The translations under genes and the position numbers were made by a program. This document shows positions 34,480-52,225 of a DNA stretch of 64,000 nt, piece after piece; the first letter of the stretch is position 1, and the number at the start of each line of letters is the position of its first letter. The notes beneath the pieces are model-generated. The model had not been told where the DNA came from. It worked only from the letters and a program-made list of their open reading frames with translations, and ran no database searches. This DNA is from Halovenus salina (GTDB lineage Archaea > Halobacteriota > Halobacteria > Halobacteriales > Haloarculaceae), in NCBI RefSeq assembly GCF_026410925.1, contig NZ_CP112972.1, forward strand, positions 1,674,001 to 1,738,000. Direction: 5' to 3'.

Positions 34480-37400
34480 TTATTCGCGAGTCTGGCGGCG
34501 GACAGCCAGGAGCGCAGCACCGAGGAACGCCAGCAGTGCCACGACAACACCGAAGCCAGCTCCGTCACCGTCGCTGTCATCAGTGTCCGTCTCCGTGTCT
34601 TCAGGCTCCTCGGTTGCCGTCGGCTCGGGCTCCTCCGTTGCCGTCGGCTCGGGCTCCTCCGTTGCCGTCGGCGTCGGTTCGGGCGTCGACTCCGGACCGA
34701 TGGTCAGCGCACCGGAAGTGTCGTCGTCCGCAGTCGCAATGCTGTGGACGTACGTCGTGCCGAACTCGAGTGAGCCGGTGTCCGCTTCGAAGGTCACCGT
34801 CGTCGACTCGCCGCCCGCCAGGGTGACGGACTGCGTGTTGAGCGTCTGACCGTCGATGCGGAGTTCGACGTCCTGGGTTGCCTCCTCGTCACCGTCGTTG
34901 GTGACCGTCGCGCTGACCTCGACGGCTGTACCGGGCTCGTCGAGTTCAGCGTTCTGGGGCGACAGGTCGCTGACCTGGAAGTCAGCGGGGTCTGCGTCCT
35001 CGACCGTCACCTGTGCGGTGCGCGTGATGGCGTTACCGTCATCGTCGGTGTACGGTGCGCCTTCAGCGCGGTAGGCAACTGCGGTCAGTTCCTGGTTCTC
35101 CTCGACATCCTCGTCGAGGGAGACTGCGACGCGGGTCTGCTCACCAGTAGCGAGGTCGCTGCTTGTGCCGAGGCGTTCGCCGTCGGCGTTCTGGATGGCG
35201 ATGAAGCCACCCTGCGTGGTGTTGAACGTGTCAACAGTCACGGAAGCGCCACCGGAGCGCTGGTCCGAGAACGTGAACTCGTCAACAGCAGGCGGTGCGG
35301 TAACGACACCAGGCACCGTCTCCTCGTTCGCCGTCAGCGGAGTGTTGCTGTCGGGTCCAGTGACGCGGACATCGAACTCAGTGCCGGCCGATTCGTCACC
35401 GAAGTCTTCAGTCACGGACCAGGTGTTGGCGCCGCCTTCGACGTACTCGACGGTTGTCGTCGGCGTCTTGACGAAGGCGTCATCCTCACCGGAGGCCGTG
35501 ACCATTTCGATGGTCAGTTCCGTTCCGGCAGCGAGCGTCGTCGTACCGCTGACCTGGACGCCGTCTTGCTGCGGAACGTTCACTTGGTCACCTTCGAAGT
35601 CAATCGTTGCAGATTCCTCTTCGACGGTGAGGCTGCTGGTGGCACCTTCGTCAGGGTCGAAGACCTTGACGTTGTTACCGCTAGAGTCAACCTCGAACCG
35701 GTACTCACCGCTGATGAAGTCCGTGTTCGTGCCGAGTGACGTCTCCTCGGTCACTGACTGGACCTGATAGAACGTGCTGTAGTCGGTGTCCGTCTCGAAT
35801 CCGTTACCGATGTTCTGCGGGAAGTAGTACGTCTCGAGGTTCCCGTCGTTGTCAGTGCCGGCAAGGACGGTGTCCGGATCAGTTACGAGGACGGAAGCGG
35901 ATCCACCGGTGTTAGCGTCCGCGTCGCCAGCCGAGAAGAGCTGGACGAGAAGCGGCGTGGTTCCACTACCAATCAGGAATGGGTGTTCGGCCGCATTCTG
36001 GCGGGTAGCGACCTGCGACGCTGCCGAGAATGCGGTCGAGACATCGTGGTCGTCTTCACGGTCGAACAGGAGCGTCTCTGCTGCGTCGAAGAAGTCGCCC
36101 TGGCCTGCGTTACCGTAGCTACCCTCATTGTCCGTCACGAGCGCCTCGTGGAGGAGGCCCTCGAGGCCGGAGGACTGCATCTCGACGATCAAGAGGTCGC
36201 CGTCGGCGACAGCGCCATCAGCCGGCGTGACGAGTTCGTCCTCGACTGCCGTGGCGATGTCGTCGACCGTCTCGAGGTCAGATGCGACACCATCGGGAGC
36301 GGTCCACTGCTGGAAGCCCTCGGTGTTGCGTTCGTTCAGACGAACCTTCGTACGTGCGTCGAGGCCGTCTGCTGCTCTGTACATCTGGCTACCGGTGACG
36401 ACCGTCAGGTCGTAGCTACCGGATGCGAGAACTGCACCGCCGTCACCGCCGGTGCCGTCGAATGCACCGCCAAGGTCGGCGGCCGTTTGGCTGGTAACGC
36501 TACTCTCTAGCGAGGTGTCCTCGCCCGTGACGATACCGTGGTCACGAGCCGACGAACCGATCTGGAACGTGTTCAGGTAAGCCGTCACCGTTCCGTCACC
36601 GTCGTCGTCGACGAGGGTGGCGTTGACTTCAACGTTCTGGCCCTCGGCTTCTGCGCCGAAGGTCATTGTCGCCGTGTCAGTACCCTGCAGGTCGATCTCG
36701 ATCGGGACGATGTCACCGCGGACGTACTCGCTGTCCGTCGTTGGTGCGTTGATCGACGCGGTCGTATCGACCGGGTCACCGATCTGCAGCGTACCGGTCA
36801 GTACAGAGACCTCCGAGGGGACGTGCTGGACGACGGCCTGATAATCACCGTCGTCAGTGATGTCCTCGCCGTCACCCGTCGAGAAGTCCACAGTCGCGTC
36901 ACCGGAGCCGTCCAGTTCCACTGTGTCGGATGCTATCGAGCTCTCGGTGGGGTCATACTCACCTTCCCAGACGCCGACGAAGACCGAACTACCGGTGAGG
37001 TCGTCGGTGTTGACGTTCACCGTGGCATCCTCGTTGAGGTTGGTTTCGTTCTCTGCGAACTCAGCCGAGAGGCCAAGCGGTTGGACGTCCACGACGACGA
37101 GGTTGCTGCTGTCGTCACCGAACTGTAGGACGTACAGTCCCTCGTCCAGGCCAGACGTATCGATGTTCGCGGCCTGACCGGGCGTTGTACCGGTCCGCAC
37201 GGCAGTGTCGCCGAGTTCAATCGGGTCACCGCTAGCATCGCCTTCAGTGAACTCGCGGAGCTTGAGGACCTCCCGGTCGTTGTTAGCGTCGACGGTCAGC
37301 GTCTCGCCTTCGAAGACACGGAGGTACTCGTCACCGGCGCTCGGGTTGAAGTTGTCGACGATGGTGCTCGTCTGCCGGTCGCCAGTCACGCTCGTCTGGC

Positions 37401-38034
37401 TCGCGGCGGACGTACCGGCTTCGACAGCGCGGTAGCTGGCCGACGCAGTGTTGCCGAACTCGTCACTGGCGACGTGGTCGACGATCCCGCCACTGAGGTC
37501 GGTGTCATCGTCGATGGTGTTCCAGCTCGACGCGGTGACATCGGCGCTGAGCTGCACATCGAACTGAACGGTTTCCGTAGTGCCATTGTCACTGTCGCTG
37601 ACAGAGCCAGCCCAGTTGACATTCAGCAGCGTATCGCCGTTCGACTCGGTGACGCTAACGCTGTTGACACCAGAGGCAAAGCCTGTTCCCGAGTCGCTCC
37701 CGGAAACGTAACTGACGCTCACACCGCTTTCGAGCGAGTCCTGGATATTGACGGTGAAGTCGTTGCTCTCATCGAACACACCGTTCTCAGCGGTGAGGTC
37801 TACCTCAACCGTCTGTGTAATGGTTCCGATGTTGTTGCTTTGAAGAACACCGTCAACGTTTTCATCAATTATCGTACTTTGGCCACTCGCGATCGAGATG
37901 TCGGAGACACCTTGATCGATGTCTGCATTCTGCGCAGCGACTGCCCCGCTAAAGGATGCGGTCATGGCAACTACCGAAAGCACCATGATCGCAGCGAGGA
38001 ATACTGCGCGTAATTTCTCTGTTGTGTCTGTCAT
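34480..38034 (-). CDS. csg: S-layer glycoprotein
   Basis: 1184 residues, strongly acidic. The signal peptide (LRAVFLAAIMVLSVVAMTAS...AVAAQ) is the haloarchaeal surface-glycoprotein type (TIGR04207-like). The body consists of beta-rich, Ig-like repeats with several N-glycosylation sequons (NGT, NET, NAT, NTT). A Thr/Pro/Glu repeat of TATEEPEP units (residues ~1125-1150) is a likely O-glycosylated spacer. The tail, GDGAGFGVVVALLAFLGAALL then basic residues, is PGF-CTERM-like but with AGF in place of PGF. It would form the cell wall, anchored through ArtA encoded next door. A leader of ~115 nt is inferred from the TATA box. Confidence 0.92.
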   Translation of the reverse strand: MTDTTEKLRAVFLAAIMVLSVVAMTASFSGAVAAQNADIDQGVSDISIASGQSTIIDENVDGVLQSNNIGTITQTVEVDLTAENGVFDESNDFTVNIQDSLESGVSVSYVSGSDSGTGFASGVNSVSVTESNGDTLLNVNWAGSVSDSDNGTTETVQFDVQLSADVTASSWNTIDDDTDLSGGIVDHVASDEFGNTASASYRAVEAGTSAASQTSVTGDRQTSTIVDNFNPSAGDEYLRVFEGETLTVDANNDREVLKLREFTEGDASGDPIELGDTAVRTGTTPGQAANIDTSGLDEGLYVLQFGDDSSNLVVVDVQPLGLSAEFAENETNLNEDATVNVNTDDLTGSSVFVGVWEGEYDPTESSIASDTVELDGSGDATVDFSTGDGEDITDDGDYQAVVQHVPSEVSVLTGTLQIGDPVDTTASINAPTTDSEYVRGDIVPIEIDLQGTDTATMTFGAEAEGQNVEVNATLVDDDGDGTVTAYLNTFQIGSSARDHGIVTGEDTSLESSVTSQTAADLGGAFDGTGGDGGAVLASGSYDLTVVTGSQMYRAADGLDARTKVRLNERNTEGFQQWTAPDGVASDLETVDDIATAVEDELVTPADGAVADGDLLIVEMQSSGLEGLLHEALVTDNEGSYGNAGQGDFFDAAETLLFDREDDHDVSTAFSAASQVATRQNAAEHPFLIGSGTTPLLVQLFSAGDADANTGGSASVLVTDPDTVLAGTDNDGNLETYYFPQNIGNGFETDTDYSTFYQVQSVTEETSLGTNTDFISGEYRFEVDSSGNNVKVFDPDEGATSSLTVEEESATIDFEGDQVNVPQQDGVQVSGTTTLAAGTELTIEMVTASGEDDAFVKTPTTTVEYVEGGANTWSVTEDFGDESAGTEFDVRVTGPDSNTPLTANEETVPGVVTAPPAVDEFTFSDQRSGGASVTVDTFNTTQGGFIAIQNADGERLGTSSDLATGEQTRVAVSLDEDVEENQELTAVAYRAEGAPYTDDDGNAITRTAQVTVEDADPADFQVSDLSPQNAELDEPGTAVEVSATVTNDGDEEATQDVELRIDGQTLNTQSVTLAGGESTTVTFEADTGSLEFGTTYVHSIATADDDTSGALTIGPESTPEPTPTATEEPEPTATEEPEPTATEEPEDTETDTDDSDGDGAGFGVVVALLAFLGAALLAVRRQTRE

Positions 38035-39844: not shown

Positions 39845-42259
39845 CTACGTTCCATCGTCTTCTGATGACACCGATACCGTTGCTCCCTCGTAAACCGCTT
39901 CCCTGGCGACAGTTACAGTTTCACTACCGACAGTGTACTTACCGGGATACGCAACTCGGATCGTTGCGGTACCTGTATCATTAGCCGTCGTTGTCCGGCG
40001 GTATGTGAACTGTTCGCCGGCAGTCTCGACAGTCGTTTTGGCAGTCACGTTTGCACCTGGGCTGGTTTGGACCTGGACTACTGCGCCCGGTACGACGGCG
40101 AACGTTCGAACATCAGGTGACGAATATATTAGTTGAAAGTGCGCAACAGAATTGTTGCCAGCACCGAGTTTTTCGAAGAGTTTGGAATGTGTCGTCCCTG
40201 TCGGAAGATCCTGGTCCAGCAGGACGACATATCCCACACGACCCAAGAATTGGTCGTATTGACTATCTGGTTGCTCACCGGTTATAAATCGTTCATGAAA
40301 GTTCTGCGCATAGCTATAACTCGGTGAGTCCCAACCGACGAAGTAGTTGTACATACGATTGTCACCCCACTGGCTGAGGACGAGGTTAGAGTGGCTGGGA
40401 GTGGTCGATTCATTATGTGCAGCGATAGCCGTCGCCGCCTCGAACTGGCCATCGCTGTGTTGAATTTGTCCGAGCAATGTGGGGACGAAAATGAGGTTCA
40501 ATAGAAGTACGAACCCGACCACTGCAACGAGGTATCCAGTTTGTCGTCGCTCAGGAAATGATGGTATCTCTAGGTTTGTGGTGTCATCTATCTCAAATAG
40601 AGTGGGAGTTCGCGCGAGATCGACTGCAGCGAGGAGATAGATGAGTGCGACGCCTGCAAAAATCGCGATAAAAAGAGACAATTGTGCCGCGAACCGGACC
40701 TGAAGACCGGCAAGAAGCAGATACGACCAGGCGAAACAGACCAGCACCAGCCAGTCTGGCTCGTATCGCCGGGCGACGTGCCAGGTTACAAGCACGAGCG
40801 CAGCTAGCCCGAGATAGAATCCAAACCCAATCTGCGCCAATGGTTTTAAGATAATGCCCTGGTCTATGGAGAACAACGACGTGGCTTCGGTAATACCTTC
40901 GCGGCCGAAGAGGTCACTAGCCCGTCCCTGAAGTTTGTTGACACTCTCCGGACGAGACAGACGGAAGGCCAAACCACCGACGACAGCGACCACGCCCTCG
41001 GCGATCAGTAATCGGTTCGGCGGAAGGTTCAAATGTCGCCAAATCGTCGCAAAACCGACAAGTCCAATAGCGCCAACGGTGACCAGAGCAGGGGCCGCCA
41101 CGGCAATAAACTGGTGCCAGCCGAATTGGAAATGCGCGAACGCAGCAAGCAAAGTTCCAGCCCCGAGCCCGACTAGCACCGGAATATTGGTGAGCCATGG
41201 CGGAACATCTTTAGCCACATCGACGACAACACGACTTCCGAGATACAGCGCGACGGGAATGAACGTCAGCGGTGACCCCCCCCATGCATGCACGGACGCA
41301 GCAACTGCAAGGGCGAGGAGAGCGGTTACAGCCCATGTGCGAGGAGCGCGAATATGATTAACTGCGGCGTTCCAATCTCCTTGAGTATTACTCACACTGT
41401 TATCAGCCGATGGGCTGTTTCGCTGGCGACGTCGCTTGAAATCGACCGCAAGCCAGACTAGCGCGAATACCAGCGCAGTGAGCCAGAAATACTGATATGT
41501 GCGGTGTTCAAGGAACCCAAGGCTAGTGTAGATGGTGTGAACAGGGGTTAGCGCAAGAAAGAGGAGTGTCGCTACTGCAATCCGGTGGTCCATACTCAGC
41601 GTGACGACAAGGGAGTAGAGGACAATCGCGAGGAAAACTGACGCCACGATAGGCAGCCAGGCTGCAACCATGCTGGCCGCGTCGGGTGTCCCGCCAAGCA
41701 GTTCAGTGAACCACCAGTTAAACGCGTGTGTCAGTGGGCGACGGCGTGTTAGATCACCGACAGTCCCAAGCATCCCAAAGTCAGTCAGTCCGGTAGACTG
41801 CTCAAGCAGCCGCTCCTGCCAGTACCGATAAAAGTATGGATCGTTCGCTGGGGAGACGACGTATTCGCCCCGGAAGACTGACTCGAAGTACATCAGCCTT
41901 ACTGCAACGATAACCACAAGCGACCCGACGAGGGTTCCAATCGCGCCCAGGTCGATAGTTGGAATCGACAGGTCGACCGAAGTTGCGTCCGCTGTGGTCG
42001 TCGATGTGGCTGTGGTATCTCTTGAGAGAGTGGTTTCGATGACAACAGAATCAACGAATCGATACTCACCATCCTCGGTCTGTTCAACGAATTCGCGTGA
42101 GACAAGTTCGCCGAATTGCCCAGAATCGAGTGGCGCATCAGCGAATGTCCAAGAGCCGGTTTGGTGTTGCTGTTCGAGAAGAGCTTCAACACTGTTCTCG
42201 AGATCAGGATACTCGGAGAGAAACGAACGCGTCGCTTCTTTGACACGCTCCGGTGTCAT
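39845..42259 (-). CDS. AglB/STT3-family oligosaccharyltransferase-like protein, non-canonical
   Basis: 804 residues. An N-terminal cytosolic ~90 residues look like a winged-helix domain (GQFGELVSREFVEQTEDGEYR). About 13 membrane helices follow, and then an extracellular globular domain. The first loop has the catalytic-type acidic motif SPANDPYFYRYW and the second region GFLEHRTYQYFW. At the place of the hallmark WWDYG, however, it reads SQWGDNRMYNYF. It is therefore a divergent paralogue, not a standard AglB, though probably still a lipid-linked glycan transferase. It faces the nonulosonate operon across 180 bp. Base composition is noticeably more AT-rich than in csg. Confidence 0.8.
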   Translation of the reverse strand: MTPERVKEATRSFLSEYPDLENSVEALLEQQHQTGSWTFADAPLDSGQFGELVSREFVEQTEDGEYRFVDSVVIETTLSRDTTATSTTTADATSVDLSIPTIDLGAIGTLVGSLVVIVAVRLMYFESVFRGEYVVSPANDPYFYRYWQERLLEQSTGLTDFGMLGTVGDLTRRRPLTHAFNWWFTELLGGTPDAASMVAAWLPIVASVFLAIVLYSLVVTLSMDHRIAVATLLFLALTPVHTIYTSLGFLEHRTYQYFWLTALVFALVWLAVDFKRRRQRNSPSADNSVSNTQGDWNAAVNHIRAPRTWAVTALLALAVAASVHAWGGSPLTFIPVALYLGSRVVVDVAKDVPPWLTNIPVLVGLGAGTLLAAFAHFQFGWHQFIAVAAPALVTVGAIGLVGFATIWRHLNLPPNRLLIAEGVVAVVGGLAFRLSRPESVNKLQGRASDLFGREGITEATSLFSIDQGIILKPLAQIGFGFYLGLAALVLVTWHVARRYEPDWLVLVCFAWSYLLLAGLQVRFAAQLSLFIAIFAGVALIYLLAAVDLARTPTLFEIDDTTNLEIPSFPERRQTGYLVAVVGFVLLLNLIFVPTLLGQIQHSDGQFEAATAIAAHNESTTPSHSNLVLSQWGDNRMYNYFVGWDSPSYSYAQNFHERFITGEQPDSQYDQFLGRVGYVVLLDQDLPTGTTHSKLFEKLGAGNNSVAHFQLIYSSPDVRTFAVVPGAVVQVQTSPGANVTAKTTVETAGEQFTYRRTTTANDTGTATIRVAYPGKYTVGSETVTVAREAVYEGATVSVSSEDDGT

Positions 42260-42439: not shown

Positions 42440-43468
42440 ATGATTGCGGGTAACAACGTTTTGGTGACGGGAGGAACAGGCTCAGTCGGTCGAGTGTTAG
42501 TACGCCGACTTCTGAATCGTAATCCAAACGTTATTCGAGTTTTCGATCAAAGCGAACCGGGACTTGCGGCACTCAAGGACGAACTTGACGACGACCGCTG
42601 TCGGTTCCTGGCCGGAAACATCCGCGACAAGGACCGTCTCGTTCGGGCAGTCGATGATATCGATACTGTAATTCACACTGCCGCGATGAAACACGTCGAT
42701 GTCTGCGAGTACAATCCGTTCGAGGCCGTAAAAACAAACGTCGTGGGGTTACAGAACCTCATCGACGCCTCGATAGATGCAACGGTCGAGCAGTTTGTCT
42801 TTACCAGCAGCGACAAGGCAGTCAATCCTGCAAACACCATGGGGACGACGAAACTGCTCGGCGAGAAGCTGGTCACCGCTGCAAACAAATACAGCGGCCG
42901 ACAGGACATTCAGCTCTGTTCTGTCCGGTTCGGGAACGTCATCAACTCGTCGCAATCTGTCATCCCAGTGTTCAGAGAGCAGATTGAAAACGGCGGACCG
43001 ATTACGCTGACAGACCGTCGGATGACACGGTTTTTCCTCACCTACGATGATGTTGCAGGACTCGTTACCAACGCGATGAAATACACAGCGGGCGGCGAAG
43101 TCTTCGTCCGCAAGATGGATGCCGTCCGAATCGAGGACCTTGCAGAGGCCATGATTCAAGCGTTTGCGCCGAAGGCCGGCTACGACCCGTCCGATATCGA
43201 GATTGAGATGACCGGGAGGCGTGTCGGCGAGACGTTCGACGAGAAAATCCTCACCGAGCGGGAAGTAACACGAACAGTCGAAAACGAATCACTGTACGCT
43301 GTCACCCCGGAGCAGGCCGGCGAAAATGGCTACCTTTCGCATGATGGCATCGATGGGTTCGACGATGTCGATGACGTTGTACTCTCGTCACACAACGCAG
43401 AGCAACTCGAACAGGATGCGATTCTGGAACTGCTCAGAACTGAGTTCGAGGAGGGGATTGCACGATGA
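42440..43468 (+). CDS. UDP-GlcNAc 4,6-dehydratase-like SDR enzyme (PseB/CapE/FnlA type)
   Basis: 342 residues. NAD-binding TGGTGSVGRVL (10-20) and the dehydratase motif SSDKAVNPANTMGTTK (Lys126, Lys138) identify the polysaccharide-biosynthesis SDR group. The usual catalytic Tyr is Met134, as in CapE- and PglF-type enzymes. The short form and the C-terminal RRVGETFDEKILTERE match CapE/FnlA proteins, which invert C5, suiting a PseB role: UDP-GlcNAc to the 4-keto-6-deoxy L-arabino sugar. It is first in an operon; its stop overlaps the next ATG (ATGA). Bacillosamine or L-FucNAc formation are alternatives. Confidence 0.82.
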   Translation: MIAGNNVLVTGGTGSVGRVLVRRLLNRNPNVIRVFDQSEPGLAALKDELDDDRCRFLAGNIRDKDRLVRAVDDIDTVIHTAAMKHVDVCEYNPFEAVKTNVVGLQNLIDASIDATVEQFVFTSSDKAVNPANTMGTTKLLGEKLVTAANKYSGRQDIQLCSVRFGNVINSSQSVIPVFREQIENGGPITLTDRRMTRFFLTYDDVAGLVTNAMKYTAGGEVFVRKMDAVRIEDLAEAMIQAFAPKAGYDPSDIEIEMTGRRVGETFDEKILTEREVTRTVENESLYAVTPEQAGENGYLSHDGIDGFDDVDDVVLSSHNAEQLEQDAILELLRTEFEEGIAR

Positions 43469-44415
43469 CTGACGATACTGTCGTCGTCACCGGTGCAGCC
43501 GGATTCATCGGCAGATGGGTCGTCAAAGAGCTGTTAGCGCGTGACTACACGGTTCGGGGACTCGACGACCTCTCGAATGGGTCACGACGGAACGTTGCAG
43601 CGTTCGATTCGAATCCAGGGTTCGAACTCGTCACCGGCGATGTCACTGACCGGGAGACTGTCGAGGCGGTGTTCGACGAAGACGTTACAGCTTGCTTCCA
43701 CCTCGCTGCAGAAATCGACGTGCAGGAGAGTCTCGACGACCCACGGCGACACTTCGAGACGAACGTGACAGGGACCGAGCGGGTACTCGAAGCGTGCCGG
43801 CGGACGGAGACGAGACTTGGCCTTGTTGGCACATGTATGGTCTACGACATGGCGGACTCCGAGACAGGCATCGACGAGACACATCCGGTGAAGCCGGCAT
43901 CTCCGTACGCCGGGAGCAAACTCGCCGCAGAGAATCTCGCCGAGAGCTACTATCACGGCTACGGGTTGCCGGTGACGATTCTCCGACCGTTCAACACGTA
44001 CGGCCCCCACCAGAAGACCGGCATGGCGGGCGGTGTTGTCTCTATCTTTACCAACCGTGACCTGCAGGGAGAGCCGCTGAAAATCTTCGGCGACGGAACA
44101 CAGACACGCGACCTGCTGTACGCAACTGACTGTGCCCGCTTCGTCGTCGATGGAACTTTCTCTGAGGCTGCCGTCGGCGAGGTGCTCAATGCGGGGACCG
44201 GGTCGGATATCTCGATCAACGAACTCGCGGAGCTGATCGCAACTGACCAGACAGAGATCACCCACGTCGAGCATCACCACCCCCAGAGTGAGGTCCAGAA
44301 GTTACAGTGTGACCCGACGAAAGCAAGGGACCTGCTCGACTGGGAGCCCGAGGTCACTCTCGAAGAGGGCGTCAGTCGTTTACGCGACTGGATGCAAAGA
44401 AGAGACGAACAGTAA
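43465..44415 (+). CDS. NAD-dependent sugar epimerase/dehydratase
   Basis: 316 residues of extended-SDR type. TGAAGFIGRWV binds NAD, and the active site has YAGSKLAAENLAE (Tyr-x3-Lys). The sugar-binding TFNTYGPHQ-like segment is RPFNTYGPHQKTGMAGG. It resembles UDP-glucose/GlcNAc 4-epimerases and dTDP-glucose dehydratases. In this operon it may supply a second glycan sugar or modify the 4-keto intermediate; classical pseudaminate synthesis needs no such enzyme. It overlaps the dehydratase gene by 4 bp and ends 1 bp before the aminotransferase ATG. Confidence 0.85.
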   Translation: MTDDTVVVTGAAGFIGRWVVKELLARDYTVRGLDDLSNGSRRNVAAFDSNPGFELVTGDVTDRETVEAVFDEDVTACFHLAAEIDVQESLDDPRRHFETNVTGTERVLEACRRTETRLGLVGTCMVYDMADSETGIDETHPVKPASPYAGSKLAAENLAESYYHGYGLPVTILRPFNTYGPHQKTGMAGGVVSIFTNRDLQGEPLKIFGDGTQTRDLLYATDCARFVVDGTFSEAAVGEVLNAGTGSDISINELAELIATDQTEITHVEHHHPQSEVQKLQCDPTKARDLLDWEPEVTLEEGVSRLRDWMQRRDEQ

Positions 44416-44416
44416 G

Positions 44417-45604
44417 ATGCCAGGGAAGCAACCGGCACACTACCGCGGCGACCCAGTCCGTGAGGAGGTCCTCGGCTACGGAAGCCAGAGTATCACGGAC
44501 CACGAGAAAGAAGCGGTTGTCGAGGCGCTCGAAGGAGATTACATCACTCGTGGCCCGACAGTCGACGAGTTCGAACGACGTGTTGCCGATTTGGTCGGCG
44601 TCGAGCACGCTGTCGCAACAACTTCAGGCACAACTGCGTTACACCTCACAGGCCGAGCCGCTGGGTTCGAGGCGGGGGACGAGGTGATTACGACACCGCT
44701 CACCTTCGCGTCGACATCTCACGCGGCGACCTACTGTGGCGCAGAGCCAGTGCTAGCAGATATCGACCCACACCGGCGGACACTCGATCCCGATGCAGTG
44801 CGTGAGCAGATCACCGAAGACACTGCTGGGATTATTCCGATGCACTATGCGGGCCATCCCGCAGATATCGAGGGACTGCTCGACGTTGCAGACGAGCACG
44901 ACCTGACTGTTATCTGGGATGCCTGTCACGCGTTCGGGGGGACCTGGCGTGATGAGGCGATTGGCGCACAGCGGGATATGGCGATTTTCAGCTTCCATCC
45001 AGTCAAAAACATCACCACGGGCGAGGGCGGGATGGTCGTTACCGACGACGACGACCTCGCAGAGCGGCTGCGACAGTTGCGGTCGTTCGATATGGACTAC
45101 GACCCAGCGGGCCACGAATCCGAGCCCTGGTATCAGGTGACCGAAGGCATTGGATACAACTACAACGTGACAGATATGCAGGCTGCCCTAGGACTCGCCC
45201 AGCTCGATCGGCTGGATGAGTTCAAACAGCGACGTGACGAAATTGCTGCCCGCTACGACGAGGCATTTGCCGATATTCCAGGCCTCCGGACGCCGCCAGA
45301 GCCGGTCGAGGCAGACCCGATGTATCATCTCTATGCGGTTGAAGTTCGCGAGGAGTTTGGCTGTGATCGCGAGGAGTTTGTCAACGCGATGCACGCTGAG
45401 AACATCGGCGTACAGGTTCACTATGTGCCACTGTATTACCATCCGTTCTTCCAGGAGGAGTACGGCTATACCGAGGGCATGTTCCCCGAGACCGAACGCG
45501 TCTACGAGGGCGTAGTGAGCCTTCCACTCCACGCGGAGATGAGCGACGACGACATCGACGATGTTGTGCGGGCTGTTGAGCGACTGCACGCCCACTGGAA
45601 CTAG
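44417..45604 (+). CDS. pseC: DegT/DnrJ-type sugar aminotransferase, PseC-like
   Basis: 395 residues from ATG 44417. The PLP-binding Lys197 lies in FSFHPVKNITTGEGG, the precise wording of PseC-type enzymes, and WDACHAFGG supplies the cofactor-stacking region. It would add the 4-amino group to the keto sugar from the first gene, using glutamate. It is third in the plus-strand operon, 1 bp after the epimerase stop. About 110 bp then separate it from the synthase gene, which has its own TATA-like element. Confidence 0.85.
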   Translation: MPGKQPAHYRGDPVREEVLGYGSQSITDHEKEAVVEALEGDYITRGPTVDEFERRVADLVGVEHAVATTSGTTALHLTGRAAGFEAGDEVITTPLTFASTSHAATYCGAEPVLADIDPHRRTLDPDAVREQITEDTAGIIPMHYAGHPADIEGLLDVADEHDLTVIWDACHAFGGTWRDEAIGAQRDMAIFSFHPVKNITTGEGGMVVTDDDDLAERLRQLRSFDMDYDPAGHESEPWYQVTEGIGYNYNVTDMQAALGLAQLDRLDEFKQRRDEIAARYDEAFADIPGLRTPPEPVEADPMYHLYAVEVREEFGCDREEFVNAMHAENIGVQVHYVPLYYHPFFQEEYGYTEGMFPETERVYEGVVSLPLHAEMSDDDIDDVVRAVERLHAHWN

Positions 45605-45715
45605 CGCGTCTCGGAGCCAGCACGGGGAGGACGGCTCTGGAAAGACACCTGTCTGTTACAGAATGTCGTTCGTGAGTCAGAAGCATTTATCCTGTTGTGA
45701 TTGATGGTATCTGCT

Positions 45716-46771
45716 ATGTCAGACTTCTCTATCGGAGACCATCCGATTGGCCCGGATGAGCCGACATTTGTGATTGCCGAGGCGGGCTCGAATCACAACG
45801 GAGACATAGAGACTGCAAAAGAGTTGATAGATGTCGCCGCTGATGCGGGTGCAGACGCGGTGAAGTTCCAGACGTTCCGCGCCGAGGATATGTACGTCGA
45901 GGAAAGCGGCGAGGCGGAGTATCTCGAAGACGAGCGCTCGCTCTACGAGATTATCGAGGACATGGAGATGCCCTACGAGTGGATACCGGAGCTGTACGAG
46001 TACTGCAAAGAGCAGGGTGTCTGCTTCATGTCGACGCCGTTTGACGAGCGCTCGGCCGACGAGCTCGAAGCGTATGTCCCGGCATTCAAGATTGCGTCGT
46101 ACACCATGTCTCATCACCCGTTTCTGGAACACCTCGCCAGCATGGACAAGCCAATAATCATGTCTACCGGTGCACACGAAATGGCTGAGGTGGCCGAGTC
46201 TGTCGACACACTCGACAGCGTCGGATTCGACGAGTTGGTCCTGTTGCAGTGTGTCGCGGCGTATCCGACGCCACTAGAGTTGATCAACGTCCGTGTCGTC
46301 GAAACACTTCGGGAGGAGTTTGGTGTGCCAACTGGCTTATCCGATCACACACTCGACCCGACGACTGCACCGAGTACGGCGGTTACACTCGGCGCGTCGG
46401 TCGTCGAGAAACATTTCACTCTCGACAAATCGATGGAAGGCCCGGACCACCAGTTCGCGCTCGAACCCGACGAACTCGATGTGATGGTCGATGCGATACG
46501 GAAGACCGAATCTGTTCTCGGGACCGGGCACAAGGAAGTGATAGAGGTAGAACAGGAGCTACACGACATCGCAAGACGACGAATCCACGCGGCGCGTGAC
46601 ATCAACGAGGGCGAGATCATAACCGAGGAAAACATCGCCGTGCTCCGGTCGGGCAAGCGCGAGCCCGGACTCAAACCCAAGTTTTACCACGAGATTCTCG
46701 GTACGACTGCCACAACTGCGCTCGGCGAAAATGATGGCATCTCGTGGGACGATATCTCGATGGACGAGTGA
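45716..46771 (+). CDS. pseI: NeuB-family nonulosonic acid synthase, PseI-like
   Basis: 351 residues from ATG 45716 (TTTAT about 30 nt upstream suggests a leaderless start; a shorter ATG-TTG option lies at 45701-45704). The TIM-barrel opens IAEAGSNHNGD, continues with ADAVKFQTFRAEDMY and CFMSTPFDERSADELE, and has GLSDHTLDPTTAPSTAVTLG. A C-terminal antifreeze-like SAF domain carries RRRIHAARDINEGEIIT. It condenses a 6-carbon diacetamido sugar with phosphoenolpyruvate to give a 9-carbon nonulosonic acid. With PseG and PseC nearby, pseudaminic acid is the likely product. Sialic or legionaminic acid synthase remain possible. Confidence 0.9.
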   Translation: MSDFSIGDHPIGPDEPTFVIAEAGSNHNGDIETAKELIDVAADAGADAVKFQTFRAEDMYVEESGEAEYLEDERSLYEIIEDMEMPYEWIPELYEYCKEQGVCFMSTPFDERSADELEAYVPAFKIASYTMSHHPFLEHLASMDKPIIMSTGAHEMAEVAESVDTLDSVGFDELVLLQCVAAYPTPLELINVRVVETLREEFGVPTGLSDHTLDPTTAPSTAVTLGASVVEKHFTLDKSMEGPDHQFALEPDELDVMVDAIRKTESVLGTGHKEVIEVEQELHDIARRRIHAARDINEGEIITEENIAVLRSGKREPGLKPKFYHEILGTTATTALGENDGISWDDISMDE

Positions 46772-46798
46772 TCTGTTACTCTCTCGCCTGAGTACCTG

Positions 46799-47260
46799 TT
46801 ATAAATCGATGAGATACTCGCCCTCGCTTTCTTCTGTCGAACTAATCCTTTCGAATCCTACTTTCTCGAAGAGGTTCTGTGACGCCTCGTTATCTTTGGC
46901 AATTTTGGCTCTTGCTTCAGCGTAGTTTTGTTCTCGCAGCCAATCAGTAATAAAGTTCAGTGCGTCCGTTGCGATACCGTTCCCCCACGATGTGATTTCA
47001 CCGACATACACACCAACCTCTGGTGTCTCTGTTTCGAGATCGGCCACAGAGACTGAGCCTACATCACGCCATTGCTCAGCGGTGTTGATGACAATTATCC
47101 AGTCGCGCCGATTCTCTCGCGACTGCCACCATTCGAGATGATTCTCCCAGACGAGTGGTTCGTCTTGTTCCGAGAAGTGGTGATATACTTCGGGATGTGA
47201 CCGCCATGCGAGCAGTAATTCTAAATCATCCGCTGTCGCTGGTCGGAATTCTATTTTCAC
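46799..47260 (-). CDS. GNAT-family N-acetyltransferase, possible PseH role
   Basis: About 153 residues from GTG 47260, where the fold begins (VKIEFRPATADDLELLLAWR). A longer frame starts with GTG 47320 and would overlap PseG by 11 bp. Typical RimJ/RimL-like GNAT elements are VGVYVGEITSWGNGIATDAL (acetyl-CoA loop) and NEASQNLFEKVGFERI. It is third in the minus-strand arm after the cytidylyltransferase and PseG, the right company for the step that N-acetylates the 4-amino sugar made by PseC. The end (STEESEGEYLIDL) is acidic. It converges on the synthase gene, 27 bp apart. Confidence 0.8.
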   Translation of the reverse strand: MKIEFRPATADDLELLLAWRSHPEVYHHFSEQDEPLVWENHLEWWQSRENRRDWIIVINTAEQWRDVGSVSVADLETETPEVGVYVGEITSWGNGIATDALNFITDWLREQNYAEARAKIAKDNEASQNLFEKVGFERISSTEESEGEYLIDL

Positions 47261-47309
47261 TCTTTCTTTCCTTCTCCCGTCAGCAATAATAGATTTGCGG
47301 AACAGGAAA

Positions 47310-48308
47310 TTAGTTAGCACTGATCACGTCTGCGACTCGGGCCGCTCCACGGCCGTCGACAAGCGTGCGACCGCGGGAACGCCGTTCCCGACGCCGCTCC
47401 GGACTGGTCATATACTCCGCTATTGCTGTTTTGAACGTCACGGTGTCTGCGTCTGGGTCCAGTACCGTAGCGAGATCGCGTTCCCGAAGTGCATCTGTAA
47501 TCTGTTCCTGATTCGGCGCGACGGGGAGACAGATAATCGGCGTCCCGAGGCCGAGCAACTCGTAGATGGTACTGCTGGCGGTTGTGATTGCAAAATCTGC
47601 CCGGTACATTCTCTCGGGAAGGTCCTCTGGGTCACGAACTACAGAGACTGTCGTCGTCACGTCATCTGCGACATCTCTGACGGTTTGCTCTTGTGCTTCC
47701 GAGAATCCTGGCCCAACAATTGCATCCACGTGTACGTCTTGATTATCGAGCGCTCGTATGACGTGTGGTGTTCGTTTCTCTATGTCGCTTCCGCCCATCG
47801 TCACGAGGACGTACTGCGGGACGTCTCGCCACGGCGGTTGCTCTGCCATCTGTGTCGTAATCTCTTCACGCAAGAGCACGTACTCAGGGCCCAGATACAC
47901 CTCTGGGGGCGAGCCATGGTACTCGTAGTCCATGTCTGTGGCATGGATGTTCCCGTTCGTGAATATATCAGCACAGACTGCGTGTCTGTCGTCGTCTTGA
48001 AGCACTGCGAGCGTTGTTCGGTCCCGAGTTGCTCTCTGATACTCGGTATCGACCGGATAAGAGTCGGTGAACACAGCATCTGGCTGTGTCTTTTCGAGCC
48101 ACTCGACGAACGGCTCTGGATTGTCACGAGACGGAAGTGAGGCGGTTTCGACGCCGTTTGGACACACCTCGTTGACATGTTCTGGTGTCGTCGTGGCGTA
48201 GGTGACGTCGTGACCTTGACTCAGCAGTGCGCCAGCCAGTGCACCCGACCGAACCAGATGGCCGTATCCAATCTCTGGGCCTCCGTCAGCGCGGATTACC
48301 AGTTTCAT
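47310..48308 (-). CDS. pseG: UDP-sugar hydrolase PseG
   Basis: 332 residues with a MurG-like GT-B fold. The start, RADGGPEIGYGHLVRSGALA, carries the family's catalytic His at position 17. The donor domain has LVTMGGSDIEKRT and TTASSTIYELLGLGTPIICLP. PseG removes UDP from UDP-2,4-diacetamido-2,4,6-trideoxy-altrose and so separates the pseudaminate route from legionaminate, which uses a NeuC-like epimerase. Its ATG overlaps the stop of the cytidylyltransferase gene by 1 nt (TAATG). Confidence 0.9.
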   Translation of the reverse strand: MKLVIRADGGPEIGYGHLVRSGALAGALLSQGHDVTYATTTPEHVNEVCPNGVETASLPSRDNPEPFVEWLEKTQPDAVFTDSYPVDTEYQRATRDRTTLAVLQDDDRHAVCADIFTNGNIHATDMDYEYHGSPPEVYLGPEYVLLREEITTQMAEQPPWRDVPQYVLVTMGGSDIEKRTPHVIRALDNQDVHVDAIVGPGFSEAQEQTVRDVADDVTTTVSVVRDPEDLPERMYRADFAITTASSTIYELLGLGTPIICLPVAPNQEQITDALRERDLATVLDPDADTVTFKTAIAEYMTSPERRRERRSRGRTLVDGRGAARVADVISAN

Positions 48309-49060
48309 TATTTTGGTTTCTTCTGAGAAACTGTCGTGTTTATGTCAGCCAGACCGTGCTCGTCGATGTAGTCGACGGCGTCAGCAAATCCTGGCGTTCG
48401 GTCGTATTCGAGGCCATCGAACACTGCGCGAAGAAGTTTGTAATCTGCGGCTTCGTCTAATGTGAGCCTGAGATTCGGTCGGTTCTGAGGAGACCCCTTT
48501 CTAAACGTCTCTTCGGCTGTCACGCTGTGGAACTCGAACTGGTCTGGGTTGTCTCTATAATAGAGTGTGACATGTTCCAGATGCGCCGGGTCCTGTGCGT
48601 GCTCGTGGACACGGTTGAAACTCTCGAAGGTGAACACCTCGACATCGAGTCCGCGCGGGAACGTCCGTTCGAGGATATTCGTCGCGTACTCGACACCAGT
48701 GTCGCGTCGTTGTGCAATTACCTCGTCGACAGTCGCCGGGTCGAGCAACGGACAATCTGCGGTGATGCGAACCACTTCGTCGGCATCCACAGATTCGGCC
48801 GCACGGTACATCCGGTCGAGAACGTTCTCTTCGTCTCCCCGGAAGACCTCGACACCAGTCTGTTGTGCGTGCCACTCGATGATGTCGTCTGCCTGTTTTG
48901 TCGACGTTGCAACGACGACGGTGTCGATGTTTGTCGCGGATTGAACTCTATCGACGACATGGTCAAGTTCGAACCGGCCACCGAGCGGAAGCAGGACCTT
49001 GCCTGGAAGTCGCGTCGATCCCATTCGTGCCTGAATTATTGCTACTGTGTGGTGGCTCAT
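48308..49060 (-). CDS. Cytidylyltransferase activating a nonulosonic acid (PseF/SpsF-like)
   Basis: 250 residues. The nucleotide-binding opening IIQARMGSTRLPGKVLLPLG is the SpsF/PseF/NeuA type, with ITADCPLLDP holding the metal-binding acid and PRGLDVEVFTFE the sugar site. It would form the CMP-activated 9-carbon sugar needed for transfer. It is first gene of the minus-strand arm and is preceded by a symmetric TATA element (GTATTAAATAC, 49091-49101). SpsF-like members can also take other sugars, so the CMP-pseudaminate role rests on context. Confidence 0.82.
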   Translation of the reverse strand: MSHHTVAIIQARMGSTRLPGKVLLPLGGRFELDHVVDRVQSATNIDTVVVATSTKQADDIIEWHAQQTGVEVFRGDEENVLDRMYRAAESVDADEVVRITADCPLLDPATVDEVIAQRRDTGVEYATNILERTFPRGLDVEVFTFESFNRVHEHAQDPAHLEHVTLYYRDNPDQFEFHSVTAEETFRKGSPQNRPNLRLTLDEAADYKLLRAVFDGLEYDRTPGFADAVDYIDEHGLADINTTVSQKKPK

Positions 49061-49272: not shown

Positions 49273-50727
49273 TCAGGAGGCGATAGCCTCTTTCACGAAT
49301 AACACGTCCTCTTTCGTGAGGAATCCCATCAGGAAGCCAAAAGTTCCGTACACAATAATGCCAGTTGCCACAAGGATTGGGAGTCCGACCAATGCAGGCG
49401 TATGGACAATTGGCTGAATTCCCCGGACAGCGCCCCCCATCAGTGCTGACGCGATGAGGACCTTGCTGAGGACTCTCAGAGAGATTGTGAAGCGCTTTCG
49501 TTTCCATACGACTACGACAGCGAGACCAAATACGAGGCTTCCAAGAGTCGATATTGATGCACCTGTTGCGGCATAGGTTGGGACCAGAACAAAATTTGCT
49601 CCGATGTTTACAATTGCGACCGCCGTCCACAGTACTGCAGACCCGCGTGATTGACCATCCGAGAGAAGAGTTTGAATAAGTATATTGAACAGTCCGTACG
49701 CGAGCATTGCTGGCGCAAGCAGATACATCAAGTCTGTATACCCTTGAACTGTCGTAGAACTCAGGACTCGTAAGAGAGGGTCTGCGATAACAATCAGACC
49801 GATGGTTGCTGGAATGCTCAGTATCAGAAAATATTCCAGTACACTACTCAGTCGGCGTCGGTACTCTTTGATGTTGTTGTTCTCATGTAGGGACGCAAGG
49901 TCCGGAAACAGGACTGTCCCAATGGCCAGCGAGACGATACTCAGGCCGCTTGCGGTCGCGTATACGACCGCGTACCCACCGGTAACATCAACGTTATGAA
50001 AATACGTGATTAGATACCGGTCACTCACGTTCACGACCCAGTACATCATTCCAGTCGCGATTAGTGGAACACCAAATCGGAGATAGTGGTCGATACGTTC
50101 GAAATTTGGACGGGCGACCCCGAAGTCAGCCACGACATAACCACCGAGGACAATCGAAAGAACGACATGGAAAAGCAGATACGCCACAAATATCGCGAGA
50201 ATAGACTCGAACCGAATAGCAGCCACGATGATGACCAGGATTTCACCCACTGAGCGGACAGATTTCACCCCCGCGAACACCGTCATCCGCCGCTGTGATC
50301 GATAAAACTGTGTCGACTGCCTCGTAAACAGTGAGAAAAGGAGGACACCGGCAAGGATAACGACTAGGTGTGATTGTTCTTTCCCGCCGAACGCAACTAT
50401 CGCAATCGGATTCTGCAAGAGCATCATGAACCCACCGACGATCACTGCTACGATGAACGTCACAACGATAATTGCCCAGAATTCGCCACGAATCCGCTCT
50501 TCGGATGCATCCACTAGCAATTTGTTCGTTGCTGCTCCGAGGCTCAGGCTCGCGACGCTGGATACAAGAGTCAAGCCGATGGCAAAATTTGTCCACAAGC
50601 CGTAGGCACCTGAATCGATAATTTTCGTCACGACTGGGATGAGGATGATTCCTCTGAGTTTGTTGACCAACTTCGGTAGCGTCGAGATAAGAAAATCCGT
50701 TATGAACTTTTTTCGGCTCTCTGCCAT
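49273..50727 (-). CDS. Polysaccharide flippase (Wzx/MATE-like)
   Basis: 484 residues with about 14 membrane helices, in the MOP superfamily layout (RGIILIPVVTKIIDSGAYGLW in helix 1-2; LIATGMMYWVVNVSDRYLIT; GTVLFPDLASLHENN). It should flip a lipid-linked oligosaccharide across the membrane. Its start lies 1 bp after the stop of the KpsC/S-like gene, implying one transcript. It is then separated by ~210 bp from the next gene on the strand, the cytidylyltransferase. Confidence 0.85.
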   Translation of the reverse strand: MAESRKKFITDFLISTLPKLVNKLRGIILIPVVTKIIDSGAYGLWTNFAIGLTLVSSVASLSLGAATNKLLVDASEERIRGEFWAIIVVTFIVAVIVGGFMMLLQNPIAIVAFGGKEQSHLVVILAGVLLFSLFTRQSTQFYRSQRRMTVFAGVKSVRSVGEILVIIVAAIRFESILAIFVAYLLFHVVLSIVLGGYVVADFGVARPNFERIDHYLRFGVPLIATGMMYWVVNVSDRYLITYFHNVDVTGGYAVVYATASGLSIVSLAIGTVLFPDLASLHENNNIKEYRRRLSSVLEYFLILSIPATIGLIVIADPLLRVLSSTTVQGYTDLMYLLAPAMLAYGLFNILIQTLLSDGQSRGSAVLWTAVAIVNIGANFVLVPTYAATGASISTLGSLVFGLAVVVVWKRKRFTISLRVLSKVLIASALMGGAVRGIQPIVHTPALVGLPILVATGIIVYGTFGFLMGFLTKEDVLFVKEAIAS

Positions 50728-50728
50728 A

Positions 50729-52135
50729 TTATCTGGTTCCGAGGTACTCCGTTATCGACTCGGCAAAGGTTTCCACGTTCTCCGGACGGGTATCGCCCCA
50801 CGATCCGTCGTAACTCGATTCACGAACACCATGGGCGAACGCAGCGATTTCCTTCTCGGCCAGACCCTCAGACGTTACAGCGTTGTCGAGTACACTCGGG
50901 AGGGCGTCTGGATTTCTCAGGTCGTGGGTGTACCCACCGTCGCTGTAGAATGCATCGGCGAGCGTGAGAACCGGTTTACCGTACATTATCGCTTCGTACC
51001 CGACTGTGTTATTCAGTGTGACAACCGCATCTGCGTGTGTGATAACGTCCCGTCCGGAGATGGTCGGTGCGATTGCCTTCGAGTATCGGCTTATTGCCCG
51101 CACATGTGACAGCGGGAGTGCACCCAGTTGCTGGGGGTGGTCCTTGACAACCAACTCGTAACCGAGTGGGAGCGAGCGCGAAAGATACTCAATCAGCCAC
51201 AGTTGATTATAGAACGCTGGTGCCCGCATCGTCACGCGTGACTCTCGGAAGTAGTGAAGTGGGTAGAAGATATACCGGGTTGATTCGATGAGTTCGCGTG
51301 AGGACTGTTCGTCCATGTACCACTGTTTACTTATTTTTCCGAGGGCGCGCTTTGCGACGCGCCGACGAAGCCAGTCGATTGCGACGGGTCCGATTTCGTG
51401 TTTGTACTCTCGAATCCGTTGCAGTTTTCGCTGTATGTTATCGAAGAGGGTCTCCGGTTGGCCAGGGTACTCAATCACTGCCTTCCGGTTGCCAGCGACT
51501 GTCTCTCGTAGCTCTTGGGCAGATTCTCGTTCCTCTTGTGTCATATCCTCGTATGTTGCTGCTTCAATGGAAGGAAACTGCATCTCTTCCGTTGATCGTA
51601 AAAATATTTTTCCAGAGAGTGGTGAAACAGACGCTCGGACAGAGGGATAGTCGTGGTAATCAGCAACCCGCTGAAGTGCTCGACGGAGAATCTCTGCACC
51701 TTGCCACTGGAGAGGTATCCCGCCGTCGCCGTTCTCATAGAGAGTATCGAGAAAATCAAGCGTCCGGTGCAGGAGGTCAAGATATGACTTGTAATCCATG
51801 GATTCAACACCGGACAACCAGTACCGTCGTGCCGACGGTGAGTCGTAGCTTCTGTCGTACACCATCTGTGGAAACACGAGCCGTTTTGGACTGTCGATCC
51901 CGTATTTCTCACAGAGTGCATTAAGCCCAGTCGTTGGTTCGTGGTTCAAGTAATCTCGTCGATACTGTCCCGAGGAAAGTGTCTTCGCCGCCGTCTCTGC
52001 GATGTTCCTATTCTGTGGAATGTATACCGGGAGAGCCCCTCTCTCTTGGATTTCCTCCCCGACAAGGTCCAGAAACTCCACTATCGAATTCGAGTGAAGG
52101 GGGAGAATAAATCGACCTGAAGGGACTGAATCCAT
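50729..52135 (-). CDS. Capsule-synthesis (KpsC/KpsS, PF05159-like) protein, candidate nonulosonate transferase
   Basis: 468 residues from ATG 52135 (a GTG lies 15 nt upstream). The C-terminal half matches the Capsule_synth pattern: IFYPLHYFRESRV, a helix, then YELVVKDHPQQLGALP, and VVTLNNTVGYEAIMYGKPVLTL followed by AFYSDGGYT. Bacterial KpsC and KpsS are Kdo transferases that use CMP-Kdo, a relative of CMP-nonulosonates. Here CMP-pseudaminate seems to be made by adjacent genes, so it may attach that sugar. The N-terminal ~200 residues (ARRYWLSGVESMDYKSYLDL) are unlike named families. It precedes the flippase in a two-gene unit. Confidence 0.72.
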   Translation of the reverse strand: MDSVPSGRFILPLHSNSIVEFLDLVGEEIQERGALPVYIPQNRNIAETAAKTLSSGQYRRDYLNHEPTTGLNALCEKYGIDSPKRLVFPQMVYDRSYDSPSARRYWLSGVESMDYKSYLDLLHRTLDFLDTLYENGDGGIPLQWQGAEILRRALQRVADYHDYPSVRASVSPLSGKIFLRSTEEMQFPSIEAATYEDMTQEERESAQELRETVAGNRKAVIEYPGQPETLFDNIQRKLQRIREYKHEIGPVAIDWLRRRVAKRALGKISKQWYMDEQSSRELIESTRYIFYPLHYFRESRVTMRAPAFYNQLWLIEYLSRSLPLGYELVVKDHPQQLGALPLSHVRAISRYSKAIAPTISGRDVITHADAVVTLNNTVGYEAIMYGKPVLTLADAFYSDGGYTHDLRNPDALPSVLDNAVTSEGLAEKEIAAFAHGVRESSYDGSWGDTRPENVETFAESITEYLGTR

Positions 52136-52225
52136 ACAATGTAGTCGCACGGCAATCTATGAAATGCGTTTTGATAAAAGCCCCATCGGTTATCAGTATT
52201 GAACTGAATTATCGTCGGGTTATGC

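Follow-up and report, generated by a model that had tools for sequence, protein, structure and literature searches.

A Pal-containing, PseG-type nonulosonate locus in the haloarchaeon Halovenus salina, most likely a pseudaminic-series pathway in a new form

Excerpts of the papers cited here describe the systems closest to the gene set considered below. In Bacillus thuringiensis, and also in Geobacillus type IV islands, cytidine monophosphate (CMP)-pseudaminate is the product of a Pen/Pal pathway (PMC5109656), and in B. thuringiensis Pen and Pal jointly stand in for PseB (PMC5109656, PMC7439481). The archaeal nonulosonate route worked out in these papers is that of legionaminate in Halorubrum sp. 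PV6 (PMC6137143), a source that also points to a survey of archaeal nonulosonate genes (Kandiba and Eichler 2013). No report of Pal in archaea was found in the archaeal pseudaminate and nonulosonate literature, which was covered as titles, abstract openings and passages, subscription papers excepted. The locus described here lies in the 3.77-Mb genome of Halovenus salina, at positions 42440 to 49060 of a 64,000-nucleotide stretch (contig NZ_CP112972.1, positions 1,674,001 to 1,738,000) that is called the window. It carries seven genes of a putative nonulosonate pathway.

The locus resembles each of the described systems in part. Like the B. thuringiensis pathway, it has a Pal ortholog (52% identity), a Pen-like first enzyme and enzymes of the PseC, PseG and cytidine triphosphate (CTP)-transferase types; unlike that pathway, its dehydratase has Met for Tyr, its synthase is SpsE-like and not PseI by model, and its genes form convergent arms beside aglB. 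It shares with the legionaminate-producing sps pathway of B. subtilis (PMC7439481) a Met-form dehydratase, an SpsE-type synthase, a PseG-like protein (SpsG) and an SpsF-type CTP transferase, but it has Pal, and there is none in the sps stretch. The PseG family and a PseC-like aminotransferase are held in common with the PseBCHGIF pathway of Campylobacter and Helicobacter, from which the locus differs in having two enzymes in place of one PseB and a synthase that falls short of the PseI model. Halorubrum sp. PV6 likewise has haloarchaeal nonulosonate genes near aglB and an S-layer target; there, however, the set includes LegG (a NeuC homolog) and a NeuA homolog, unlike the PseG, Pal and SpsF-type enzyme of the window (PMC6137143). 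The most likely description is a known pathway in a new form, that is, a Pal-type, PseG-type haloarchaeal nonulosonate route of the pseudaminic series whose first enzyme is of the Met form and whose synthase is of the SpsE type. The product, destined for surface glycans, would be a CMP-activated 5,7-diamido nonulosonic acid with the inverted C5 of the pseudaminic series; confidence in this reading is slightly above even.

A preliminary description of this DNA had listed the seven genes in two convergent arms meeting near 46.78 kb. All seven were found in place, and the arms end at stops at 46771 and 46799. It had also proposed a probably complete CMP-pseudaminate pathway; what stands is a near-complete CMP-nonulosonate set of the PseG kind beside S-layer-type and AglB genes, and the PseB-type route does not. 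The gene at 43465-44415, which had been called a short-chain dehydrogenase/reductase (SDR) epimerase with its role left blank, is judged from its sequence to be Pal, the most informative gene of the set. Its best solved relative is B. thuringiensis Pal (6bwl, 351.7 bits) and the next structure scores 165.1 bits; GalE, RmlB and LegB are ruled out by this difference (351.7 versus 165 bits). The Y-x3-K motif is kept in 89 of 89 Pal rows, and the T..VY stretch in 88 of the 89 with a relaxed pattern, a stricter pattern having matched 60.

Pal travels with the other genes. A survey of 195 Halobacteriales genomes (Pal at E 1e-60 or better, PseG at E below 1e-30, synthase at 56% identity or more) found Pal in eight. 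The window-type synthase occurred in nine genomes, namely all eight Pal carriers and G124, followed by a gap to 45% identity, and PseG in ten (seven of the eight Pal carriers and 3 of the 187 others). Fisher p values were 2e-13 for synthase with Pal and 5e-10 for PseG with Pal, both overstated because the genomes are related. Beyond the survey, 80 of 409 relatives were kept as Pal loci (19 haloarchaeal, 15 other archaeal, 46 bacterial) and four further haloarchaeal loci were added; there are 23 distinct haloarchaeal loci outside the window, and the 87 Pal loci include three duplicates (L012=L040, L013=L044, L017=L060). The other archaeal loci belong to Altarchaea, Lokiarchaea, Methanophagales, Methanoperedens, Methanolobus and others. 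Dehydratase, Pal, aminotransferase and synthase are present in 23 of the 23 haloarchaeal loci, and PseG with CTP transferase in 20; the latter pair is missing from L044 (the locus of genome G068), L047 and L049, which lie on short contigs or contig ends. With PseG and NeuC models built from rows of the loci themselves, PseG was found in 64 of the 87 Pal loci (62 of 84 without duplicates), neither protein in 23, and NeuC in none; a 15-row NeuC model likewise found no NeuC-like gene among the open reading frames of the window. In G124 (L030) the synthase and PseG types of the window are accompanied by another kind of aminotransferase and a gene resembling NeuA, as judged by eye. In the Pal-less genomes G119 and G122 (L026/L031, L028/L032), PseG forms part of a 549-560 aa frame next to a distant synthase, by sequence a further, different nonulosonate type.

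The PseG-type protein reaches its curated cut-off (TIGR03590, 159.8 bits; cut-off 153.55) and is alone in doing so among the PseG, PseC, NeuB_NnaB, PseI, PseB and PseH models. The scores with these family models nevertheless lie well clear of chance level. The catalytic His17 in GYGH that had been pointed out earlier is invariant in a 34-row alignment, and GxGHxxR occurs in 66 of 66 rows. An unrelated MurG-like transferase, the identity that the preliminary description had set against PseG, is ruled out by model scores (murG 24 bits, PseG 160). The fold does not decide the MurG question: a MurG came first by E-value and MurG 3s2u had the highest TM-score, while 3hbm/3hbn had the lowest root-mean-square deviation (rmsd, 3.0-3.1 Å) among the best 50 matches listed. 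The predicted model has a mean predicted local distance difference test (pLDDT) score of 96 and a fold within the PseG/MurG group; it agrees with the family and leaves the stereochemistry unsettled. PseG in place of NeuC had been the main argument against legionaminate. This stands in so far as the window and the 87 Pal loci yielded no NeuC-like gene, but it is weakened because the PseG-like SpsG serves legionaminate synthesis in B. subtilis (PMC7439481). Pal is a better argument against legionaminate than PseG because it is absent from the sps operon, although it is not proof.

The Campylobacter-type PseB first step of the preliminary description is replaced by a Pen-like dehydratase and Pal. 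The dehydratase scores 289.3 bits with the PseB model (cut-off 407.75), which rules out a plain PseB pathway. Its best solved relative is Pen (6bwc, 240.9 bits), followed by PseB 2gn4 (206); the 6bwc chain is altered at the acid/base pair (PMC8987622). By fold, Pen again came first by E-value and PseB 2gn4 had the better rmsd (2.3 Å). The predicted model (mean pLDDT 87.6) matches the Pen/PseB/WbjB/CapE/PglF group, and as with PseG it agrees with the family and leaves the stereochemistry unsettled. Haloarchaeal rows were thinned in the dehydratase, PseG, synthase and aminotransferase trees. The dehydratase tree places Pal-linked rows on one side of an 88/84 branch, with Pen as the neighbour of the window enzyme.

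At the Tyr of the DK...Y-x3-K motif of Pen, the window enzyme has Met. Tallied by hand from the listed loci, Met occupies this position in 24 of 24 haloarchaeal dehydratases (the window's included) and in all 11 found among the 15 other archaeal loci; the 46 bacterial loci have Tyr in 33 and Met in five, with no dehydratase found in eight. A dehydratase split across two frames in Halobacterium bonnevillei (L012 10415-11475 / L040), a frameshift or sequencing error, was counted as present. In the tree, Tyr occurs in one 34-row clade and once more outside it, in H. pylori PseB. PglF functions with Met at the same place, via Thr/Asp and Lys (PMC8987622), and SpsM has Met there as well (PMC7439481). 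Does the Met form point to legionaminate? Loci of Altarchaeum (L053), Methanoperedens (L091) and Methanolobus (L077) combine the Met form and Pal with proteins that exceed the PseI (474-515 bits, cut-off 340) and PseC (448-476, cut-off 423.5) cut-offs. Therefore, the Met form alone does not mean legionaminate, and to judge by these scores the Met form with Pal probably feeds a pseudaminate line in the three lineages. Excerpts on a Methanoperedens enrichment give masses of the pseudaminate/legionaminate type, the two not being distinguished, which the authors assign to legionaminate from genes (PMC11337218).

The synthase reaches neither the NeuB_NnaB cut-off (356 bits, cut-off 399.65) nor that of PseI (323, cut-off 340.25). 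Scores with the PseI, PseC and PseG models are 323, 397.5 and 159.8 bits for the window, 514, 518 and 324 for the B. mojavensis Pal cluster, and 257, 419 and 130 for sps. For sps the reference was G205, a genome with an SpsE identical to 1vli. Neither B. mojavensis nor B. atrophaeus was suited to this purpose, as none of their synthases comes near SpsE (38-39% at best). Close relatives of B. subtilis (genomes of L074, L067, L075 and L088) have a Pen-Pal cluster and no second strong NeuB-family synthase. In the tree, a 30-row clade (100/98) unites the window synthase with SpsE and PseI and leaves out NmNeuB and the haloarchaeal synthases that are mostly NeuC-linked, a label resting on NeuC seen in short stretches of 15 of 19 rows. 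Among 21 other haloarchaeal synthase loci (L166-L186), a NeuC-like gene was present in 15, within the short stretches examined. Loki and other SpsE-like rows shifted with sampling, first beside haloarchaeal synthases (support 83) and later beside PseI (99/97). The cytidylyltransferase is 42% identical to SpsF of the sps operon over residues 8-214, and the PseF model TIGR03584 is absent among the 14 NCBIfam models listed for it. The family-model placement that had been proposed earlier as a check upholds PseG, while PseC, PseI, PseB and PseH stay below their cut-offs and PseF is unlisted. The pseudaminate claim rests on Pal and the lack of NeuC and not on the synthase, because the latter is SpsE-like by tree and scores.

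The specificity of the aminotransferase decides between pseudaminate and legionaminate. Its score with the PseC model lies under the cut-off of 423.5 bits, the LegC model gives 245, and its tree is without usable resolution, leaving PseC-like versus SpsC-like unsettled. The GNAT protein scores 40.6 bits with the PseH model (cut-off 93.1). A comparison of haloarchaeal Pal loci, which rests on crude gene calls, shows that its slot is variable. In the window, L015, L046 and L051, the gene between synthase and PseG codes for a GNAT, and on the cut contigs L044 and L047 a GNAT gene follows the synthase; the same slot holds a sugar N-formyltransferase (PF00551 and PF18216) in L035, L037, L045, L048 and L050, a hexapeptide acyltransferase in L038 and L041, and PylC-like or ATP-grasp proteins in L040 and L042. 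The swapped gene is consistent with a step that acts on the 4-amino sugar and with an N-acyl group that varies. An N-formyl legionaminate is present in Halorubrum PV6 (PMC6137143). PIG-L-type deacetylase genes lie beside long formyltransferases in L035 (13987-14685) and L046 (13920-14594), both by Pfam, and in L043 (14158-14838, by similarity), an arrangement that suggests deacetylation followed by formylation.

How would the sugar be made? The Pen-like enzyme would oxidise and then dehydrate UDP-GlcNAc, and Pal would complete the C5 inversion to UDP-4-keto-6-deoxy-L-AltNAc. What the Met-form dehydratase hands over may be UDP-6-deoxy-GlcNAc-5,6-ene, the product of Bacillus Pen, or an ordinary 4-keto sugar. 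Amination at C4 by the PseC-like enzyme and acylation of the amino sugar by the GNAT would follow. PseG would remove UDP without C2 epimerisation, the SpsE-like synthase would add phosphoenolpyruvate and the SpsF-like enzyme would add CMP. The sugar would then be used on the S-layer through the neighbouring AglB. A more specific archaeal form of the Pal route is conceivable and is put forward tentatively, with rather low confidence. Here the Met-form dehydratase would skip the exo-glycal and make the 4-keto sugar directly, Pal would be a plain C5 epimerase, the haloarchaeal SpsE-type synthase would give a pseudaminic-series sugar or a different isomer, and the N-substituent (acetyl, formyl or other) would depend on which acyl enzyme occupies an exchangeable position.

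Several results weigh against a product of the pseudaminic series. Pal does not exclude legionaminate, because a B. subtilis spsM mutant fully regained legionaminate with pen and pal jointly, though with neither gene singly, and because Pen and Pal in vitro yielded both keto sugars (PMC7439481). The synthase misses the PseI cut-off, and its NeuB score is the higher of the two, a pattern common to SpsE (301 versus 257 bits) and absent from the synthase of the B. mojavensis Pal cluster; it is sister to SpsE (98/93) in a tree with added haloarchaeal synthases. A grouping with sialic or legionaminic enzymes, which the preliminary description had taken as a sign against pseudaminate, is thus half borne out: the synthase stands apart from NmNeuB and the mostly NeuC-linked synthases, but its nearest characterised relative is SpsE. 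The PseC and PseH models are both missed, an approximately unbiased (AU) test leaves the aminotransferase unseparated from SpsC (p 0.515), and the PseG tree did not resolve. The Pen grouping of the dehydratase has 88/84 support only, and AU tests fail to reject monophyly of the Met form (p 0.418) or the Met form with SpsM (p 0.305). As for gene content, G124 lacks Pal but has a synthase and a PseG of the window's types, the whole assembly of G068 is devoid of PseG (Pal sits close to the end of a contig there), and none is within reach in the Altarchaeum, Methanoperedens and Methanolobus loci.

Much of this would fit legionaminate made by a B. subtilis-type route, with its SpsE-like synthase, a Met motif as in SpsM, gene types SpsC, E, F and G in common, and the restoration by pen and pal (PMC7439481). 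This route is considered unlikely. Pal is absent from the sps operon, yet it accompanies dehydratase, aminotransferase and synthase in 23 of 23 haloarchaeal loci (loci chosen by Pal), and the synthase type accompanies Pal in eight of its nine carriers among the 195 genomes. Another isomer, 8-epilegionaminate, would accommodate both Pal and a synthase of the SpsE type; it would arise through an L-gulo intermediate if Pal inverted C5 and the PseG/SpsG-like protein epimerised C2. This isomer is improbable, as no NeuC-type C2-epimerase was found in the Pal loci and PseG passes the hydrolase model. A further reading has two separate sugars, a UDP-amino-sugar from dehydratase, Pal and aminotransferase and another nonulosonate from the minus arm. 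The opposite strands and the Pal-less G124 might suggest it, but it is very improbable, since the synthase sits in the plus arm and 20 of the 23 other haloarchaeal Pal loci contain PseG and synthase alongside Pal, the remaining three being on cut contigs.

The surroundings of the pathway (Table 1) mark the stretch as a surface-glycan island, because S-layer-type and AglB genes lie upstream and flippase, O-antigen-ligase-like and glycosyltransferase genes downstream. GC content is 0.49-0.59 from ~38 kb onward and mostly 0.60-0.65 before, with two lower 2-kb steps. The putative S-layer-type protein, read from its sequence, has a signal-like start and a Thr/Glu/Pro-rich end with a membrane stretch. 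The PF05159 family takes in CMP-Kdo transferases, and the Capsule_synth protein is therefore a candidate CMP-nonulosonate transferase, possibly CMP-sugar-dependent. A formyltransferase gene (PF00551, 61283-62053, minus strand), ~12 kb off the pathway, may serve N-formylation of the pathway sugar or of another sugar. The same genome has a second nonulosonate locus at ~986-989 kb (L018 9377-12276), separate from the Pal locus, with consecutive genes for a NeuB-family synthase, NeuC (397.5 bits, cut-off 235.9) and a NeuA/PseF-like CMP transferase.

Table 1. Coordinates of the pathway genes and their neighbours in the window, with the matches on which the names are based.
Feature	Position	Strand	Match
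Putative S-layer-type glycoprotein, C-terminal anchor	34480..38034	-	PF25162, PF23951
AglB oligosaccharyltransferase	39845..42259	-	PF18079 AglB_L1 30.6 bits
Pen-like UDP-GlcNAc dehydratase, Met form SSDKAVNPANTMGTTK	42440..43468	+	PF02719 313 bits
Pal ortholog (predicted second step, C5 inversion)	43465..44415	+	6bwl 351.7 bits; 52% identity to B. thuringiensis Pal
PseC-like sugar 4-aminotransferase	44417..45604, likely start ATG 44417	+	TIGR03588 397.5 bits, under cut-off
NeuB-family nonulosonate synthase, SpsE-like, SAF domain	45716..46771, likely start ATG 45716	+	
GNAT acetyltransferase, weak PseH match	46799..47260, GTG start	-	PF13302 81.5 bits
PseG-type UDP-sugar hydrolase, His17	47310..48308	-	TIGR03590 above cut-off; 3hbm E 1.3e-8
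SpsF-like cytidylyltransferase	48308..49060	-	PF02348 112.4 bits
MurJ/Wzx-like flippase adjoining pathway	49273..50727	-	PF03023, PF13440
Capsule_synth protein adjoining flippase	50729..52150	-	PF05159 39.8 bits; no NCBIfam match

If the pseudaminic-series reading is true, a Bacillus-type entry into pseudaminate exists in haloarchaea, and the loci found would extend it to Altarchaea, Lokiarchaea and methanotrophic archaea. Pal, never beside NeuC in the haloarchaea sampled, would serve as a one-gene genomic marker of this route, and the Met/Tyr split makes the mechanism of Pen open to comparative testing.

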